Of a stretch of DNA of 30,736 nucleotides, positions 7,641 to 28,033 are shown piece after piece (within the stretch, counting starts at the first letter, position 1; each line of letters opens with the position of its first letter). Both the position numbers and the translations under genes were made by a program. Under the pieces are notes generated by a model. The model was not told the DNA's origin. It made no database searches and saw only the letters and a program-made list of their open reading frames with translations. Location of the stretch: IMG/VR virus record IMGVR_UViG_3300017769_000075, positions 1 through 30,736 of that record, one strand, 5' to 3'. This DNA is from a virus.

Positions 7641-8348
7641 ATGGCAGTAAACGTAAACACAGTATACCAAAGAGTGTTAGCTATAACTAACAAAGAACAA
7701 CGAGGATATATTACTCCTCAGGAATTTAACACAATGGCCAATCAAGCTCAGTTAGATATATTTGAGCAATACTTTTATGATTTAAATCAATTTAGTAGAA
7801 TACCTGGAAATCAAACAGAATATTCTGATATAATGGAAATCTTAGAAGAAAAAATAAGTATATTTGAAAAAGTATTAATATCAGTTTCTGGAGGCACTAC
7901 CTTGCCAGCTGATTTATACAGATTAGGTTCTATATTAACGAACTGTCCTACATGTAGAGAAGCAGAGCAAGTATCTCAAAAAGAATGGCTATATCTTCAA
8001 AAATCACCTATTGCTCAACCATCAAATGAATTTCCTATATTTATAAGAGACAACGCTGGCATAAAAGTATATGGTGATGTTAATACAACTACAAATTTAG
8101 CAACACAAATAACTAGTGGTGTTCATGCTAATTATATAAAAGTACCAGCAACAGTATCATGGGCTGCTAACAGCGGAACAGGATTATATAACTCAGCAAA
8201 TTCTGTAAATTTTGAGCTGCATGAATCTGAGGAAACAGAATTAGTTAATAAAATATTAGCATTGTCTGGTATATTATTAAAGGACGGTAATCTTTACCAA
8301 ACAGGCTCAGCCGAAGAAATGAAGGATATTCAACAAGAAAAAGCATAA
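7641..8348 (+). CDS. Putative head-tail connector / adaptor protein
   Basis: 235 residues. The N-terminal part is helical (MAVNVNTVYQRVLAITNKEQ, then TPQEFNTMANQAQLDIFEQYF), a pattern I associate with connector or adaptor proteins that form the first ring below the portal in short-tailed phages (T7 gp11/P22 gp4 position). A Cys pair, CPTCREAEQ, lies near residue 100. The C-terminal region ends in a helix (NKILALSGILLKDGNLYQTG). It is followed after three bases by another probable ring protein and then the stabilisation protein, so the context points to head completion. Function is mainly inferred from gene order. Confidence 0.55.
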   Translation: MAVNVNTVYQRVLAITNKEQRGYITPQEFNTMANQAQLDIFEQYFYDLNQFSRIPGNQTEYSDIMEILEEKISIFEKVLISVSGGTTLPADLYRLGSILTNCPTCREAEQVSQKEWLYLQKSPIAQPSNEFPIFIRDNAGIKVYGDVNTTTNLATQITSGVHANYIKVPATVSWAANSGTGLYNSANSVNFELHESEETELVNKILALSGILLKDGNLYQTGSAEEMKDIQQEKA

Positions 8349-8351
8349 TAA

Positions 8352-9458
8352 ATGGGATTTATAAATCAAACACATTATCAGTATTATACACCAGGGCAAA
8401 AATTTACTGCAACAGCAAATCAAACTGAGTTTCTATTAACATTAGATCCTTTGCCGTCAAACAAATCATTTATTATTGTTTTTATAAATGGATCTGAGGT
8501 AGACGACAATATATATAACTATGCATCATCTGGGAGTAATGCAGGTAAAGTAATATTTACATCTGGAAGAACTGTTGGGGATTTTATAGAGGTTAAGTTA
8601 ACAACGCCTTCTGGAGGTTATAGATATATATCTTTATCGGATATAGTTAATAATTTTATGATTTCTTATGTTGGTAAAGATAAAATAATACCTAGAGTTA
8701 AAAGAACAGATGTTTTGTTTCACGCAAAAAGAGGGCTACAAGAGTTTAGTTATGATTTAACTAAAGTTGAAAAAATACAAGAAGTTGAAGTTGGTAGTTC
8801 TTTATCAATATTAATGCCACAAGATTATGTAGATTATGTTCAAATATCTAGAGTTGATAAGGCTGGTGTAGAAAGACCTTTATATCCTATAAGATTTACA
8901 TCTATACCAACAGAATCTATATTACAAGATTCAGAAGCTGCATATTTATTTGATGATGACGATAGTTTGTTAACTCAAACACCAACTACCCAAACAAGAT
9001 TCAAAGATAATAACAGTGGTAATTTTACAGGACTATTTGATAACGATGTAAACAACGACCTAGAAAGAGCACATGAAAGAATATCTGAGTATGGTGGAAG
9101 ATTTGGGTTGGACCCAGAAATTGCTCAAAAAAATGGTAATTTCATGATAGATGAATTAAATGGTAAATTTCATTTTACATCTGATTTAGCTAATGCTATA
9201 ATAACAATAAAATATATTTCAGATAGTATGGGTACTGATTCTGAAATGAAAGTACATAAATTTGCTGAAGAAGCGTTATATAAGCATATTGTATATTCTA
9301 TAGTAAGTGCTAGAACAAATTTTCCAGAATATGTAATCCAAAGATATAAAAGAGATAGATTTGCATCAATAAGAAATGCAAAGTTAAGGTTAGCAAACTT
9401 GAACCCTAAAGAGCTTGTTCAAGTAATGAGAAATAAATCTAAAGTAATAAAACACTAA
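8352..9458 (+). CDS. Putative tail ring / tubular protein with fibre-like N-terminal beta domain
   Basis: 368 residues. About residues 8-80 (YQYYTPGQKFTATANQTEFL, then IIVFINGSEVDD) match the small beta domain common at the start of podovirus fibre and tail proteins (QTEF...VFVNG type). The remainder resembles connector or tail tubular proteins: VLFHAKRGLQEFSYD, LPMQ-like LMPQDYVDYVQISRV, and a C-terminal helical half ending in basic residues (MRNKSKVIKH). It starts 3 bases after the preceding gene and stops 3 bases before the stabilisation protein, clearly one operon. It probably forms part of the ring or hub between portal and nozzle. The combination of both domains in one chain is the notable point. 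Role is inferred. Confidence 0.6.
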   Translation: MGFINQTHYQYYTPGQKFTATANQTEFLLTLDPLPSNKSFIIVFINGSEVDDNIYNYASSGSNAGKVIFTSGRTVGDFIEVKLTTPSGGYRYISLSDIVNNFMISYVGKDKIIPRVKRTDVLFHAKRGLQEFSYDLTKVEKIQEVEVGSSLSILMPQDYVDYVQISRVDKAGVERPLYPIRFTSIPTESILQDSEAAYLFDDDDSLLTQTPTTQTRFKDNNSGNFTGLFDNDVNNDLERAHERISEYGGRFGLDPEIAQKNGNFMIDELNGKFHFTSDLANAIITIKYISDSMGTDSEMKVHKFAEEALYKHIVYSIVSARTNFPEYVIQRYKRDRFASIRNAKLRLANLNPKELVQVMRNKSKVIKH

Positions 9459-23688: not shown

Positions 23689-24879
23689 ATGAAACAAATT
23701 TTAACTATCTTAGCAATATTAATATCATTTAATATTACTGCGCAAGAAGAAAAGAAAAAAAGTAAATTTTTTAAATCTATATATGATGAATTATTTAAAT
23801 ATGGTACATTATATGTAGCTGGTGATATTAAAAATCCTAGAGAAAATCCAAAAGATTATTTTGTAAGAACAAATCCTGATGGTAATTTATATACACCACC
23901 CGTTGTAGTTGATGGTACTGACTATTATGATTTTGATTATCGTTATGGTTTTGGTATTAGAAAGATTGCAAGATTTGATTACGAGAGAAAAGCTAAAGAC
24001 TATTATAACGGCACTGAATCTAACGTAGCTATGACAGCTCCTAACTCATCCATTAAAGGTTTAGAGTATGTATTTCATTATGAAAAAGAAAGGTCCAGAG
24101 ATGAGATATTTAAAAATCATAGGTATTTTCTAAAACATAGTGGTAAACATCACATGGTTAAGCTTGAAAGTAGAGCACAAGGTAAAGTTGATTTTAAATA
24201 TAAATCAGCTGAAGTGAGGGCTAAATTACCTATTGGTAAAAAGTTTAGCTTATCAGCGGGAGCGATGTATCGTACACATGAAAGAGCTTACGGATATAAT
24301 CCAATTGAAATATGGCTAAATGAAACCAACCAAGATGGTTACCCTATAAACTATTGGTATCAATTAGGTTATAATTATGGATTTACTGATCAATTGGTAA
24401 CTATTAATATTGATGGTGAAGATGTATATGATTATTATTGGTATGATCCTGAAGGAAACACGGTGGCTTATACAGATTTACAATTTCGTGACACGATATT
24501 TGAATCATTAATTAATCGTTATAATAATGAGCAGTGGGATTTACTAGACCCATTTGGTGTAGTTTCACCTGTGGTCGGTTTTGATTTTTATCACTACAAG
24601 TCAAATTTCTGGCTTCACGCATATGGTTCTTATTTATTGCCTTATCATAAATATGTAAAAGGTGATGAAGATTTTTCATATTTAAATCGTAATAACTGGG
24701 GCCTCGGAGGATTAAGACAAGATTCAGAACTTGAACAATGGAAAGATTTTCAAGCAGGTATAAATTTTGGATGGAAATTAAACAGATCAATAGGTGTATT
24801 CTTTGAAGGTGAATATACTAAATTCTGGGATAGTAGAATATATAATGGATCTGTAGGATTCAACATAACACTTAGATAA
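23689..24879 (+). CDS. Secreted protein, probable outer-membrane beta-barrel
   Basis: 396 residues with a clear signal peptide (MKQILTILAILISFNITAQE, cleavage near residue 19) of Bacteroidetes style. The mature part alternates polar and aromatic residues in strand-like runs (FDYRYGFGIRKIARFDYERK; FSLSAGAMYRTHERAYGYN; NFWLHAYGSYLLPYHKY) and ends GSVGFNITLR, like the last strand of an outer-membrane barrel. Aromatic content (Tyr, Trp, Phe) is very high. I do not recognise a family. A phage gene for an outer-membrane protein could change the host surface, for example by blocking a receptor; or it could be a virion-tip protein, though the signal peptide argues against that. Thirty-four bases separate it from the upstream gene. 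Membrane location is likely; role open. Confidence 0.6.
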   Translation: MKQILTILAILISFNITAQEEKKKSKFFKSIYDELFKYGTLYVAGDIKNPRENPKDYFVRTNPDGNLYTPPVVVDGTDYYDFDYRYGFGIRKIARFDYERKAKDYYNGTESNVAMTAPNSSIKGLEYVFHYEKERSRDEIFKNHRYFLKHSGKHHMVKLESRAQGKVDFKYKSAEVRAKLPIGKKFSLSAGAMYRTHERAYGYNPIEIWLNETNQDGYPINYWYQLGYNYGFTDQLVTINIDGEDVYDYYWYDPEGNTVAYTDLQFRDTIFESLINRYNNEQWDLLDPFGVVSPVVGFDFYHYKSNFWLHAYGSYLLPYHKYVKGDEDFSYLNRNNWGLGGLRQDSELEQWKDFQAGINFGWKLNRSIGVFFEGEYTKFWDSRIYNGSVGFNITLR

Positions 24880-24880
24880 A

Positions 24881-25234
24881 ATGGCATATATACAAAAACA
24901 TAATTACAAAGGAGTATTTAAAATGGGTCAGGATAAAATGACTCCAAATGCAAGACCGGCAGTAATGCCAAAACCAGTTCCCAAAGGAGGCGCTGCAAAT
25001 AATTTTGCAAAAGAAAGAAAGGCAATGTATGGAGATGTAATGGATAAACAAGGTAAACCTATTTTAAATCCTTTAAAATTATTTACGTCTAACAAATTTA
25101 ATAATTTTAGATGGGAAGGAAGAATGATGGATGGTGTCGTTGAAGGTGTTAAAAATGCTGTAATACCCGGTAGATTTTTTCAAAAAGCAAGAAGAGCTTA
25201 TAAATATAATAAGATAACAAAAAATAAATATTAA
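24881..25234 (+). CDS. Basic hypothetical protein
   Basis: 117 residues, rich in Lys, Arg, Asn and Met, with no signal peptide. The N-terminal half looks disordered (KMTPNARPAVMPKPVPKGGA). The C-terminal half has possible helices (MMDGVVEGVKNAV, FFQKARRAYKYN). It starts one base after the beta-barrel gene's stop and ends one base before the next gene, so it is translated as part of this operon. No known domain recognised. A virion or nucleic-acid-associated role is possible from charge alone. Confidence 0.55.
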   Translation: MAYIQKHNYKGVFKMGQDKMTPNARPAVMPKPVPKGGAANNFAKERKAMYGDVMDKQGKPILNPLKLFTSNKFNNFRWEGRMMDGVVEGVKNAVIPGRFFQKARRAYKYNKITKNKY

Positions 25235-25235
25235 A

Positions 25236-25520
25236 ATGGCAAAGCAGATTGGGGAAGATACTAAAATAACATTAGATTTAAAAACAATAGGGTTGATTAT
25301 TGGGGGTGTAGTTTCGCTTGCTAGCATGTATTTTATAATGCAGGCTGATATAGCTAGAGCAATGGAATTACCCGCGCCAGTTATTGATAGAGTTGAATAT
25401 GATTTGAAAGATGAATTAATTCGCCAAACAATTATGGATACTCAAGATGATGTAGAAGAGATAAAGGAAACTATTGATAAAATAGACGAAAGATTATACG
25501 AAATACAGCAAAGAAGATAG
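25236..25520 (+). CDS. Small protein with one membrane segment and coiled coil
   Basis: 94 residues. A hydrophobic segment at about 17-37 (TIGLIIGGVVSLASMYFIM) is preceded by charged residues. From about 55 an acidic/basic heptad-like coiled coil follows (DTQDDVEEIKETIDKIDERL). This plan, one membrane helix plus coiled coil, is seen in spanin inner-membrane subunits and in small holin-like proteins, and a lipoprotein gene follows 0.9 kb downstream. The gene ends in TAG one base before the next start, which lies in a different frame. Lysis role is plausible but unproven. Confidence 0.55.
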   Translation: MAKQIGEDTKITLDLKTIGLIIGGVVSLASMYFIMQADIARAMELPAPVIDRVEYDLKDELIRQTIMDTQDDVEEIKETIDKIDERLYEIQQRR

Positions 25521-25521
25521 T

Positions 25522-25920
25522 ATGAAATACTTAAATATAATTTTACTATTAATTACATTTAATACTTTTGGACAAGAGTTTATTACTGATAATAATTTTG
25601 ATAGTAAAATAAATGAAAAGCAAGCGTTTGGTGATAATCAAACATTGCCAGTAATAGTTGAATTTTACGCATCATTTAACGATGCTAATAAATTTAGTGA
25701 TTGGGATAAATTAGAAAATGTTATATATTATAGAGCAGATATAGCTAATTGCCCAGCGGCAAAGAAAAAATACAAAGTGCGAATGGCACCAACATTAATT
25801 ATCTTTAAAGAAGGTATAAAAGAAATAGTATTCAAAGCGGGATTAGATTTAATGTTACCTGCAGATTTAGAGGAAATACAAGAATCCATTAACGAAGTCA
25901 GTGCGGCTTCACAATTTTAA
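25522..25920 (+). CDS. Secreted thioredoxin-fold protein without the CxxC active site
   Basis: 132 residues with a Bacteroidetes signal peptide (MKYLNIILLLITFNTFGQEF, cleavage near 18). The mature part follows the thioredoxin plan: strand PVIVEFYASF, then the active-site loop, then KYKVRMAPTLIIFKEG with the conserved cis-Pro (P90) and the ..FK.G turn. Where thioredoxin has W-C-G-P-C-K, this protein has F-N-D-A-N-K (52-57), so both catalytic Cys are Asn. A single Cys (C77) remains in the mature protein. It therefore cannot do normal disulfide exchange and may instead bind a periplasmic partner. It follows the coiled-coil membrane protein by one base. The fold call is fairly sure; the role is unknown. 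Confidence 0.65.
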   Translation: MKYLNIILLLITFNTFGQEFITDNNFDSKINEKQAFGDNQTLPVIVEFYASFNDANKFSDWDKLENVIYYRADIANCPAAKKKYKVRMAPTLIIFKEGIKEIVFKAGLDLMLPADLEEIQESINEVSAASQF

Positions 25921-25924
25921 AATT

Positions 25925-26377
25925 ATGAGCAAAGGTAGAGATACATTAAAGCCGGGAAGAGGAAGGCTTAGCCAATTTATTGGTGAAACAAAAGCAAAAT
26001 TTAAAGATCCTGGTTTTCAAAAAGATTTAGCTGTATACGGAGGCATTGCATCAATAATACCTATAGGTAGAGCAATTAGTGCTGGTAAAAAAATGGTGGG
26101 TGCTTTTACCAACACCTCTAACCAGTATAGAAAACTTGCAAGTAAAGGTTTACCAAAAAGTATGCAAGCTATGTTTGAGGCCCCTGCACAATATGCTAGA
26201 GCATTTACTCCTCAAGCAACAACTACAGCAAAAGTTGTAGCTAAAAAAAATAAAGATTTAGCAAAAAATATAATAAATTCAACACCAAGAACAAAAGCTG
26301 GCGGTGGCCCTCATCCTATTATTAGTGGAGGTAGGGATATGACTAGATTTAATAGCGGTAAGTGGACCGGAAACTAA
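25925..26377 (+). CDS. Hypothetical basic protein with glycine-rich hydrophobic stretch
   Basis: 150 residues from ATG 25925, chosen because it follows the preceding stop by 4 bases and carries the AAATTATG context common here. A GTG at 25901 in the same frame would overlap the upstream gene and is less likely. The protein starts MSKGRDTLKPGRGRLSQFIG, has a short apolar stretch (YGGIASIIPIGRAISAGKK, about 38-56), then basic helices. It ends in a Gly/Pro-rich tail (AGGGPHPIISGGRDMTRFNS). No family recognised. Its content resembles other small basic proteins in this run. Confidence 0.6.
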   Translation: MSKGRDTLKPGRGRLSQFIGETKAKFKDPGFQKDLAVYGGIASIIPIGRAISAGKKMVGAFTNTSNQYRKLASKGLPKSMQAMFEAPAQYARAFTPQATTTAKVVAKKNKDLAKNIINSTPRTKAGGGPHPIISGGRDMTRFNSGKWTGN

Positions 26378-26390
26378 ATTGTAATTATGA

Positions 26391-26735
26391 GTGAAAAAGA
26401 TACTTGTCCTTTTTGTGGCGGTTACTGTGGGCTGTGCTAGCTCACAAGATATAGGTAGAGATAAATATTACCATTTTGCAGCAGGCGCTACAACAGCAGC
26501 GGTTGCAAATGAAATGGAATTACCAAGAGTAGCATCCTCTTTTGCAGCAGGATTTGCTAAAGAAAGTTATGACTATATACGTTATGGCAGTTTTGATGCT
26601 AAAGACTTGGTAGCCACTACATTAGGTGGCATAGTAGTAAATTATATAATTAAATTATTAAAAAAGAAAAAAAATGTGGAAATTAACAAAGAAATACATG
26701 AAGGACGTATGGGTCCTATTATGGAGCAAAACTGA
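26391..26735 (+). CDS. YfiM/DUF2279-like lipoprotein
   Basis: 114 residues from GTG 26391. The N-terminus MKKILVLFVAVTVGCASSQ is a lipoprotein signal with a lipobox-like TVGC (Cys15). The mature part has DKYYHFAAGATTAAVANEME and then FAAGFAKESYDYIRYGSFDAKD, matching the DK.YH...GA....GKE.YD.....D.KD.. plan of YfiM-type lipoproteins (DUF2279). An ATG four bases upstream (26387) has the stronger ATTATG context but encodes only 17 residues in another frame, so this gene either uses GTG or has an altered start. It overlaps the next gene by 62 bases. In phages such lipoproteins often sit near lysis genes; role unproven. Confidence 0.65.
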   Translation: MKKILVLFVAVTVGCASSQDIGRDKYYHFAAGATTAAVANEMELPRVASSFAAGFAKESYDYIRYGSFDAKDLVATTLGGIVVNYIIKLLKKKKNVEINKEIHEGRMGPIMEQN

Positions 26736-26982
26736 AGTAGACGAAAAAGCAATAGCTACTTTAAAAGAAGTGCAAAAAAGATATAAACTTACAGCGCAAG
26801 AAATTGAAGATGTAGCTTCAGCAATGAAAGAAGTTGCAAATCAAATTGATGATATTCCTAATGCTTTAAAAGGCAATGGCAGAAAAGGTCGTAAAGTTGT
26901 TCATAAACAAAAATCTAAAGCTGAGATTGCTAAAGCTAAGGCTAGCAGAAAAGCATGGGAAGAAGCAAACAAGAAGAAATGA
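26674..26982 (+). CDS. Small hypothetical protein, helical and Lys-rich
   Basis: 102 residues. Begins MWKLTKKYMKDVWVLLWSKT, an amphipathic, Trp-containing helix that could touch a membrane. A helical middle follows (YKLTAQEIEDVASAMKEVAN) and then a strongly basic tail rich in Lys and Ala. It overlaps the lipoprotein gene by 62 bases in another frame, an unusually long overlap in this window, and its ATG follows a poly-A run. Its TGA overlaps the ATG of the M15 peptidase gene (ATGA), indicating translational coupling with the lysis enzyme. Function unknown; a lysis accessory is possible. Confidence 0.55.
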   Translation: MWKLTKKYMKDVWVLLWSKTEVDEKAIATLKEVQKRYKLTAQEIEDVASAMKEVANQIDDIPNALKGNGRKGRKVVHKQKSKAEIAKAKASRKAWEEANKKK

Positions 26983-27440
26983 ACAATATAAGTAAAAACG
27001 TAAGTTATAAAGAAGGCGTGTATAGCATAACTGCTAATAGATTAGGTTTAGAAAATAAACCCAATGAAGAACAATTGGCTAATATGAAAACAATAGCTGA
27101 AAAAGTATTTCAACCATTAAGACAATGGGTTGGAGGACCAGTAAAGATTAATTCTTTTTTCCGTTCACCAGAATTAAATAAAGCAATAGGTGGATCAACA
27201 AAATCACAACATTGTCACGGACAAGCAATTGATATTGATGATACTTTTGGCAAAAGAACTAATGCTGAAATGTTTACTTATGTAAAAGAAATGTTAGATT
27301 TTGATCAAATGATATGGGAATTTGGTACAGATAAAAATCCAAACTGGGTTCATATAAGTTATGTATCACCTGAAGATAATAGAAATAGGTGTTTAAAAGC
27401 TTATCGCGAAGACGGTAAAACAAAATATAAAATAATATAA
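26979..27440 (+). CDS. M15-family D-Ala-D-Ala carboxypeptidase-like endolysin
   Basis: Zinc peptidase that cuts peptide cross-links of the cell wall; the probable lysis enzyme. From ATG 26979 it has 153 residues. This start is chosen because the upstream TGA overlaps it (ATGA) and AAGAAGAA precedes it; an in-frame ATG at 26955 lies inside the upstream gene. The M15 signature S-x-H-x-x-G-x-A-x-D appears as SQHCHGQAID (H78, D85), and the second zinc His lies in WVHIS (H125). The FRSPELN motif typical of M15_3 is at 61-67. There is no signal peptide, so release would need a holin; a two-helix candidate lies 370 bases downstream. It overlaps the nuclease gene by one base. Confidence 0.85.
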   Translation: MNNISKNVSYKEGVYSITANRLGLENKPNEEQLANMKTIAEKVFQPLRQWVGGPVKINSFFRSPELNKAIGGSTKSQHCHGQAIDIDDTFGKRTNAEMFTYVKEMLDFDQMIWEFGTDKNPNWVHISYVSPEDNRNRCLKAYREDGKTKYKII

Positions 27441-27808: not shown

Positions 27809-28033
27809 ATGTGGAGCTTATTTAAAGAAAAAAACGAAATAAACGAAAAAAATATAGTGGGATTTGCGTCATTTGTAGTGATGGTATTATTTGCTATAGC
27901 AGACTTAGTAACTAGTTTTATATTTGTAGACGGTGAACTTGTTATAAATGAAGTAATATATAATTCATTTGTATGGGTAACACTTGGTTGTTTTGGAATA
28001 AGTTCATTCGAAAAAGTAAAGGGAAGCAAATAA
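27809..28033 (+). CDS. Holin-like small membrane protein
   Basis: 74 residues with two predicted membrane helices: about 16-40 (IVGFASFVVMVLFAIADLVT) and 49-66 (IYNSFVWVTLGCFGISS). A short charged N-terminus (KEKNEINEKN) and a basic end (EKVKGSK) flank them. Size, topology and closeness to an M15 peptidase without a signal peptide fit a holin that lets the enzyme reach the wall. I recall similar proteins beside lysis genes in marine phages. It is the last plus-strand gene of the late region and its stop lies inside the terminator hairpin. No direct sequence proof of pore formation. Confidence 0.6.
   Translation: MWSLFKEKNEINEKNIVGFASFVVMVLFAIADLVTSFIFVDGELVINEVIYNSFVWVTLGCFGISSFEKVKGSK

Follow-up and report, generated by a model that had tools for sequence, protein, structure and literature searches.

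The stretch of viral DNA analysed here, 30,736 nucleotides of IMG/VR record IMGVR_UViG_3300017769_000075 and hereafter called the window, encodes a predicted outer-membrane β-barrel protein, designated OMP, which is followed on the same strand by a candidate inner-membrane protein (TMcc), a secreted thioredoxin-fold protein (TRX) and putative lysis genes. The open reading frame of OMP begins with an ATG at position 23689 and its stop codon ends at 24879, yielding 396 residues with the coordinates and frame correctly assigned. It is a real gene, and is under strong purifying selection, with a dN/dS of 0.05-0.12 against six relatives that are 86-97% identical. In the window it comes after the structural module, preceded by the gene of a 2156-residue probable virion protein and ahead of an M15 endolysin gene, which fits the late phage gene assumed in an earlier note on this DNA. 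The relevant features of the window are:

23689..24879, plus strand: OMP, with a Sec signal peptide (M1-A18, Q19 at +1), a predicted outer-membrane β-barrel of about 12 strands and a conserved loop domain of about 90 residues (residues 198-288)
25236..25520, plus strand: TMcc, 94 residues; a single transmembrane helix is predicted at about residues 11-33, and behind it lies a charged stretch that probably forms a coiled coil; candidate partner in the inner membrane, from transmembrane scan and linkage
25522..25920, plus strand: TRX, a signal peptide and a thioredoxin fold lacking the CxxC motif; candidate partner in the periplasm, with its translation coupled to that of TMcc
26391..26735, plus strand: YfiM-like lipoprotein, an optional but frequent neighbour (79/211 loci), with a lipobox and a below-cut-off match to NCBIfam NF008028 (E-value of 3.8e-5)
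26955..27440, plus strand: peptidase M15, probable endolysin (Pfam PF08291, E-value of 2.4e-14), found in 124/211 OMP loci
27809..28033, plus strand: small membrane protein from the transmembrane scan, a holin candidate with homologues immediately upstream of OMP in phages of 112-181 kb

The small membrane protein at 27809-28033 has no family match; its homologues at L352:11491-11757 and L353:13159-13410 gave a weak match to Pfam TssN (E-value of about 0.001) and none in PHROGs. The genes at 24881-25234 and 25901-26377, which lie between members of the module, occur only in a few near relatives and are recent insertions.

The structure of mature OMP was predicted by AlphaFold2 from 82 sequences, with a mean pLDDT of 83.7 and a pTM of 0.73 (model 2); this model, from a deeper alignment, replaced one built on 47 sequences with a pLDDT of 70.8 (model 1). 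It consists of 12 long strands reaching the C-terminus, with the ~90-residue domain inserted between strands 7 and 8. Structural similarity search revealed that solved outer-membrane barrels align with nearly the whole of both models. The highest Z-scores were obtained with KdgM for model 1 (13.8 over 162 residues, 3.8 Å) and with chain I of TOC-TIC for model 2 (11.7 over 164 residues, 3.3 Å). Model 2 also resembles TamA (11.5 over 186 residues, 4.2 Å); OMPLA and NanC/KdgM are among the fold matches as well. These matches support the predicted barrel class of OMP, not a function. Hydropathy analysis of alternating residues over the 12 predicted strands gave a difference of 2.18 units, compared to 1.27 ± 0.27 after shuffling within strands, a value reached by none of 2000 shuffles. 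Both the strand-like alternation and the barrel-like end that the earlier note had noticed are thus borne out, the latter at the level of a model.

In nearly every strand, the polar side that faces the lumen is more conserved than the lipid side. The predicted extracellular loops, assigned on the assumption of periplasmic termini, have a conservation of 2.55 bits, compared to 2.82 bits for the strands. A large number of polar residues are invariant, including R91, E126, R135, K158, E160, R195, D234, D263 and D299; inspected by eye, these include no recognisable catalytic Ser-His pair.

By sequence, OMP gave only chance matches against the PDB. The window protein has no family match in Pfam, PHROGs, NCBIfam or PADLOC, and a Pfam search for known porin and enzyme families produced no significant match for any of the 47 members of one OMP set (A1). 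The nearest viral structure is an unnamed viral protein in BFVD (UniProt A0A516LKJ4), with a Foldseek E-value of 6.7e-26, TM-scores of 0.73/0.80 and 23% identity; it shares the fold of OMP and is probably a distant homologue. Phage-encoded outer-membrane barrels have precedents in Lom of phage lambda and the Lc porin of PA-2, and BFVD contains further ones, namely OmpC-like porins, DUF481 proteins, SusC-like proteins and cyanophage OMP-like proteins. OMP differs from these in lacking a family match and in being linked to partners in the inner membrane and periplasm, close to lysis genes, unlike a stand-alone conversion gene. A barrel in a phage is therefore less unusual than the earlier note had held; what does stand out is its constant association and its location among lysis genes.

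The signal peptide of OMP, MKQILTILAILISFNITA, is followed by QEE at the start of the mature protein, and no lipobox is present. A pattern search placed glutamine at position +1, behind a plausible signal-peptidase-I (Sec) cleavage site, in no fewer than 183 of the 204 proteins of the family, as described by the Bacteroidetes Q rule (PMC10367356). Across the family the signal peptides are variable and the mature part is conserved. The relatives of the window portal and major capsid protein (MCP) infect Flavobacterium, Cellulophaga, Tenacibaculum and Maribacter, which together with the Q rule points to a Bacteroidota host. The Bacteroidetes-type signal peptide and its bearing on the host phylum, both put forward earlier, are in line with these data, which support OMP as a probably exported outer-membrane barrel of a phage that likely infects Bacteroidota.

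Homologues of OMP were found on more than 550 IMG/VR viral contigs, one scan alone confirming at least 557 stretches, and other IMG/VR scans added distant members down to ~35% identity. By contrast, tblastn of four family members and a consensus against 50,697 GenBank phage records found no relatives, the single match being a chance one with an E-value of 4. A host origin of OMP is unsupported: among 395 phylum and 397 family genomes, from the taxa of a Flavobacteriaceae metagenome-assembled genome (MAG), the sole strong match was the MAG contig already known, in addition to one marginal partial match with an E-value of 9.8e-4. The homologue search proposed in the earlier note was thus productive in metagenomic viruses, but not in GenBank phages, and essentially negative in host genomes. 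OMP is also encoded on contigs from MAGs that carry the labels Woesearchaeota, Maricaulis or Bacteroidetes; since those examined adjoin phage genes, these contigs are probably of phage origin and were binned together with the MAGs. One of these MAGs, "Candidatus Woesearchaeota" RS366 (G001, 0.6 Mb), has five contigs with the barrel family and is probably rich in mis-binned phage contigs. An 82-kb IMG/VR contig (G783, of L158) carries two separate OMP copies, at 7959-8978 and 67992-69017. A literature search on phage-encoded barrels and on the combination of OMP, TMcc and TRX found nothing on the OMP family.

OMP, TMcc and TRX form a tightly linked three-gene module. We collected 211 OMP loci, of which 136 extend at least 2.5 kb to each side, and both TMcc and TRX are present in all 136, although these loci were gathered via the barrel and are mutually related, and so do not represent 136 independent events. 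Starting from TMcc, TRX was found in 78/80 loci and OMP in 49 of the 52 loci with room for it. The order is either OMP-TMcc-TRX or TMcc-TRX-OMP, and the genes stay adjacent as a group. With a median gap of -1 nt between TMcc and TRX (within 10 nt in 185/188), the two genes are translationally coupled. Two contigs (G793 and G795, of L326 and L339) have the TMcc-TRX pair without a recognisable OMP, through either divergence or loss of the barrel.

TRX matches Pfam Thioredoxin (PF00085) with an E-value of 2.9e-6, above the gathering score. The CxxC redox motif is missing from 187 of 190 family members, and the cis-proline is kept in 99%; in our best explanation TRX is a thioredoxin fold that would be redox-inactive. 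TMcc has a conserved N-terminal segment ahead of its transmembrane helix. Its PHROGs matches, to holin, holin/antiholin and Rz-like spanin families, are weak, that to the Rz-like spanin family phrog_739 (E-value of 0.05) being not significant.

The module is shared by three or more unrelated phage types. The portal, MCP and muzzle-like proteins of the window are kin to those of Cellulophaga, Flavobacterium, Tenacibaculum and Maribacter podoviruses, and weakly related to the crAss muzzle domain. The triad also occurs in contigs of 105-114 kb whose structural genes show no recognisable homology to those of the window (G780, G781 and G785, the last of which encodes a baseplate wedge protein), in contigs of 164-181 kb (G796-G799), and in 37-kb contigs beside an HK97-type head module (L113/G790). 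One contig close to the window (G791; portal 67%, MCP 52% and RNR 83% identical) has an OMP of only 37% identity, yet the OMPs of G780 and G785 are 60% and 56% identical to that of the window. The identity of the barrel hence does not track that of the structural genes, which speaks for the module having been exchanged horizontally between phage types.

To describe the surroundings, we used the 105 loci flanked by 4 kb in either direction. A recognised endolysin or holin-like gene lies within 4 kb in 93 of them, as a raw proportion. An M15 or amidase endolysin is present in 77 loci and a holin-like gene in 68, with neither in 12; some of the families counted as holin-like are not annotated as holins, and the window gene at 27809-28033 matches no family. 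In the L113 type, the holin-like gene has a match to a PHROGs holin family. A 164-kb phage (G798) encodes, in this order, a holin-like protein, OMP, TMcc, TRX, an endolysin with Amidase_2 and peptidoglycan-binding domains, and a protein matching Phage_holin_4_1. A heuristic lipobox scan of all coding-strand frames within 4 kb found no lipoprotein in 49 of the 77 triad loci with an endolysin; in the window, the YfiM-like protein is the sole lipoprotein found.

We propose, with a probability of about 0.5, that the triad spans the envelope and breaks the outer membrane when the cell lyses, in the manner of spanins. Late in infection, OMP would be exported via the host Sec and outer-membrane assembly pathways, to form a three-part module in which OMP resides in the outer membrane, TRX in the periplasm and TMcc in the inner membrane, with the charged C-terminal segment of TMcc in the periplasm. 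The three proteins might assemble across the envelope while the peptidoglycan is intact. Once the holin and endolysin have acted, the triad could pull together or destabilize both membranes, completing lysis as spanins do, but with a barrel instead of a lipoprotein as the outer-membrane anchor. The physical interaction, the topology and coiled coil of TMcc, and the membrane-disrupting activity are inferred.

The module shares several properties with two-component spanins of the lambda Rz/Rz1 type: TMcc is a short protein with one predicted transmembrane helix near the N-terminus, encoded beside holin and endolysin genes, with an outer-membrane partner and a presumed envelope-spanning complex. 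However, the outer-membrane partner in the Rz/Rz1 type is a small lipoprotein, whereas here it is a barrel of ~378 mature residues with a signal-peptidase-I-type signal; the module also has a constant third protein, the periplasmic thioredoxin fold, and the conserved segment preceding the helix of TMcc is unlike typical i-spanins. Unimolecular spanins, the only ones reported in Bacteroidetes phages (PMC12596118), have the same expected job, host phylum and site near the endolysin. They are single proteins, whereas the module comprises three, and OMP has neither an N-terminal lipobox nor a C-terminal transmembrane domain. Since the lipoprotein feature was tested for and is absent from the module, we place it outside both described spanin classes. 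More tentatively, a barrel, a redox-dead thioredoxin fold and an inner-membrane helix might constitute a third class of outer-membrane disruption by phages, replacing lipoprotein spanins in widespread marine, apparently Bacteroidota-infecting phages and exchanged between them as a module.

Kongari et al. 2018 (PMC6139136) found no spanin in ~13% of the genomes they surveyed, and raised the idea that in spanin-less phages the role of o-spanin could be taken by an OMP. The triad is a concrete and testable candidate for that proposal, with two named partners, and bears on how the outer membrane is opened by phages in which no spanin is recognised. It occurs in hundreds of marine phage contigs, and the protein family libraries searched do not contain it; should the spanin-like reading be confirmed, it would account for lysis in a sizeable group of marine phages, and annotators would gain a marker. 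Counting against this reading are the 12/105 loci with no recognised lysis gene nearby and the two contigs lacking a recognisable OMP (G793 and G795), in addition to the conserved lumen and large loop of OMP, which suggest a specific activity beyond anchoring.

The earlier note had considered that such a protein could block receptors. In this form of surface remodelling or superinfection exclusion, the barrel would mask or inactivate receptors and thereby prevent other phages from adsorbing or injecting, and TMcc and TRX would help to close the DNA entry path. An outer-membrane protein with a large extracellular loop is suited to this role, porin-like proteins are encoded by phages, and receptor-blocking outer-membrane proteins of phages are known, for instance from T5 (PMC9586334). 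However, conservation is almost as high in the loops as in the strands, and higher on the lumen side than on the lipid side, unlike what would be expected of a surface decoy; the inner-membrane and periplasmic partners accompany OMP in every testable locus; and OMP sits with endolysin or holin genes in unrelated phages. Nor did the PADLOC anti-phage defence profiles match OMP, TMcc, TRX or the YfiM-like protein. We therefore favour a lysis function over receptor blocking, which appears rather unlikely. Another rival explanation is a lysis-timing sensor, in which TMcc would correspond to a single-transmembrane class III holin and TRX to a periplasmic antiholin, comparable to T and RI of phage T4, with the barrel reporting superinfection or the state of the envelope. 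The layout of TMcc (a short N-terminus, one transmembrane helix and a presumed periplasmic domain) and its coupled secreted partner do resemble T/RI (PMC12642591), and the weak PHROGs matches to holin and holin/antiholin families agree with this. We consider it unlikely, as separate holin-like genes are present in 68/105 loci, similarity to T or RI was not found in the sequences, and TRX has a thioredoxin fold. The T4 system has no counterpart of the barrel.

The invariant polar residues and the conserved lumen raise another explanation, that the barrel is an outer-membrane enzyme, such as a hydrolase acting on lipids or LPS, or else a channel, which weakens the outer membrane or releases material with TMcc and TRX as accessories. 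OMPLA and NanC/KdgM among the fold matches are compatible with this, but the matches are to generic barrels, the Ser-His pair was not recognised and the constant partners would be left unexplained, which makes this explanation unlikely. The position of OMP behind the 2156-residue protein could instead suggest a virion protein, packaged or ejected as part of a DNA-delivery conduit. This is very improbable: OMP and TRX both have cleavable Q-rule-type Sec signals, the virion-protein neighbour is not common to the other phage types, and phi18:3, whose virion is defined by mass spectrometry, belongs to the record set in which no OMP homologue was found.

The spanin-like reading was also compared with six related isolates that lack the triad, using heuristic screens. 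An HMM scan for OMP was negative in the Panino, elemoF and MW202828 stretches. Five isolates encode a protein of ~181-215 residues with an N-terminal transmembrane helix and a β-rich C-terminus, located close to the endolysin or to terL:

L356:14185-14784, phi38:1 gp084
L355:10342-10989, Gundel gp087
L119:4391-5014, MW202828
L116:392-937, elemoF
L120:1701-2303, Panino

It is possible that these proteins are non-lipoprotein unimolecular spanins with a β-type outer-membrane end. The same screen on triad loci gave extra open reading frames with an N-terminal transmembrane segment in only 15/82, which by eye are lipoproteins, antisense frames or unrelated proteins, none of the isolate type. In the sixth isolate, phi18:3, two small overlapping genes follow a glycosyl-hydrolase gene and encode transmembrane or signal segments:

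L357:15901-16182 and L357:16133-16453, phi18:3 gp094/gp095, one with an N-terminal transmembrane helix, the other with a C-terminal transmembrane helix and a signal resembling the Q-rule type

They possibly form a two-component envelope pair.
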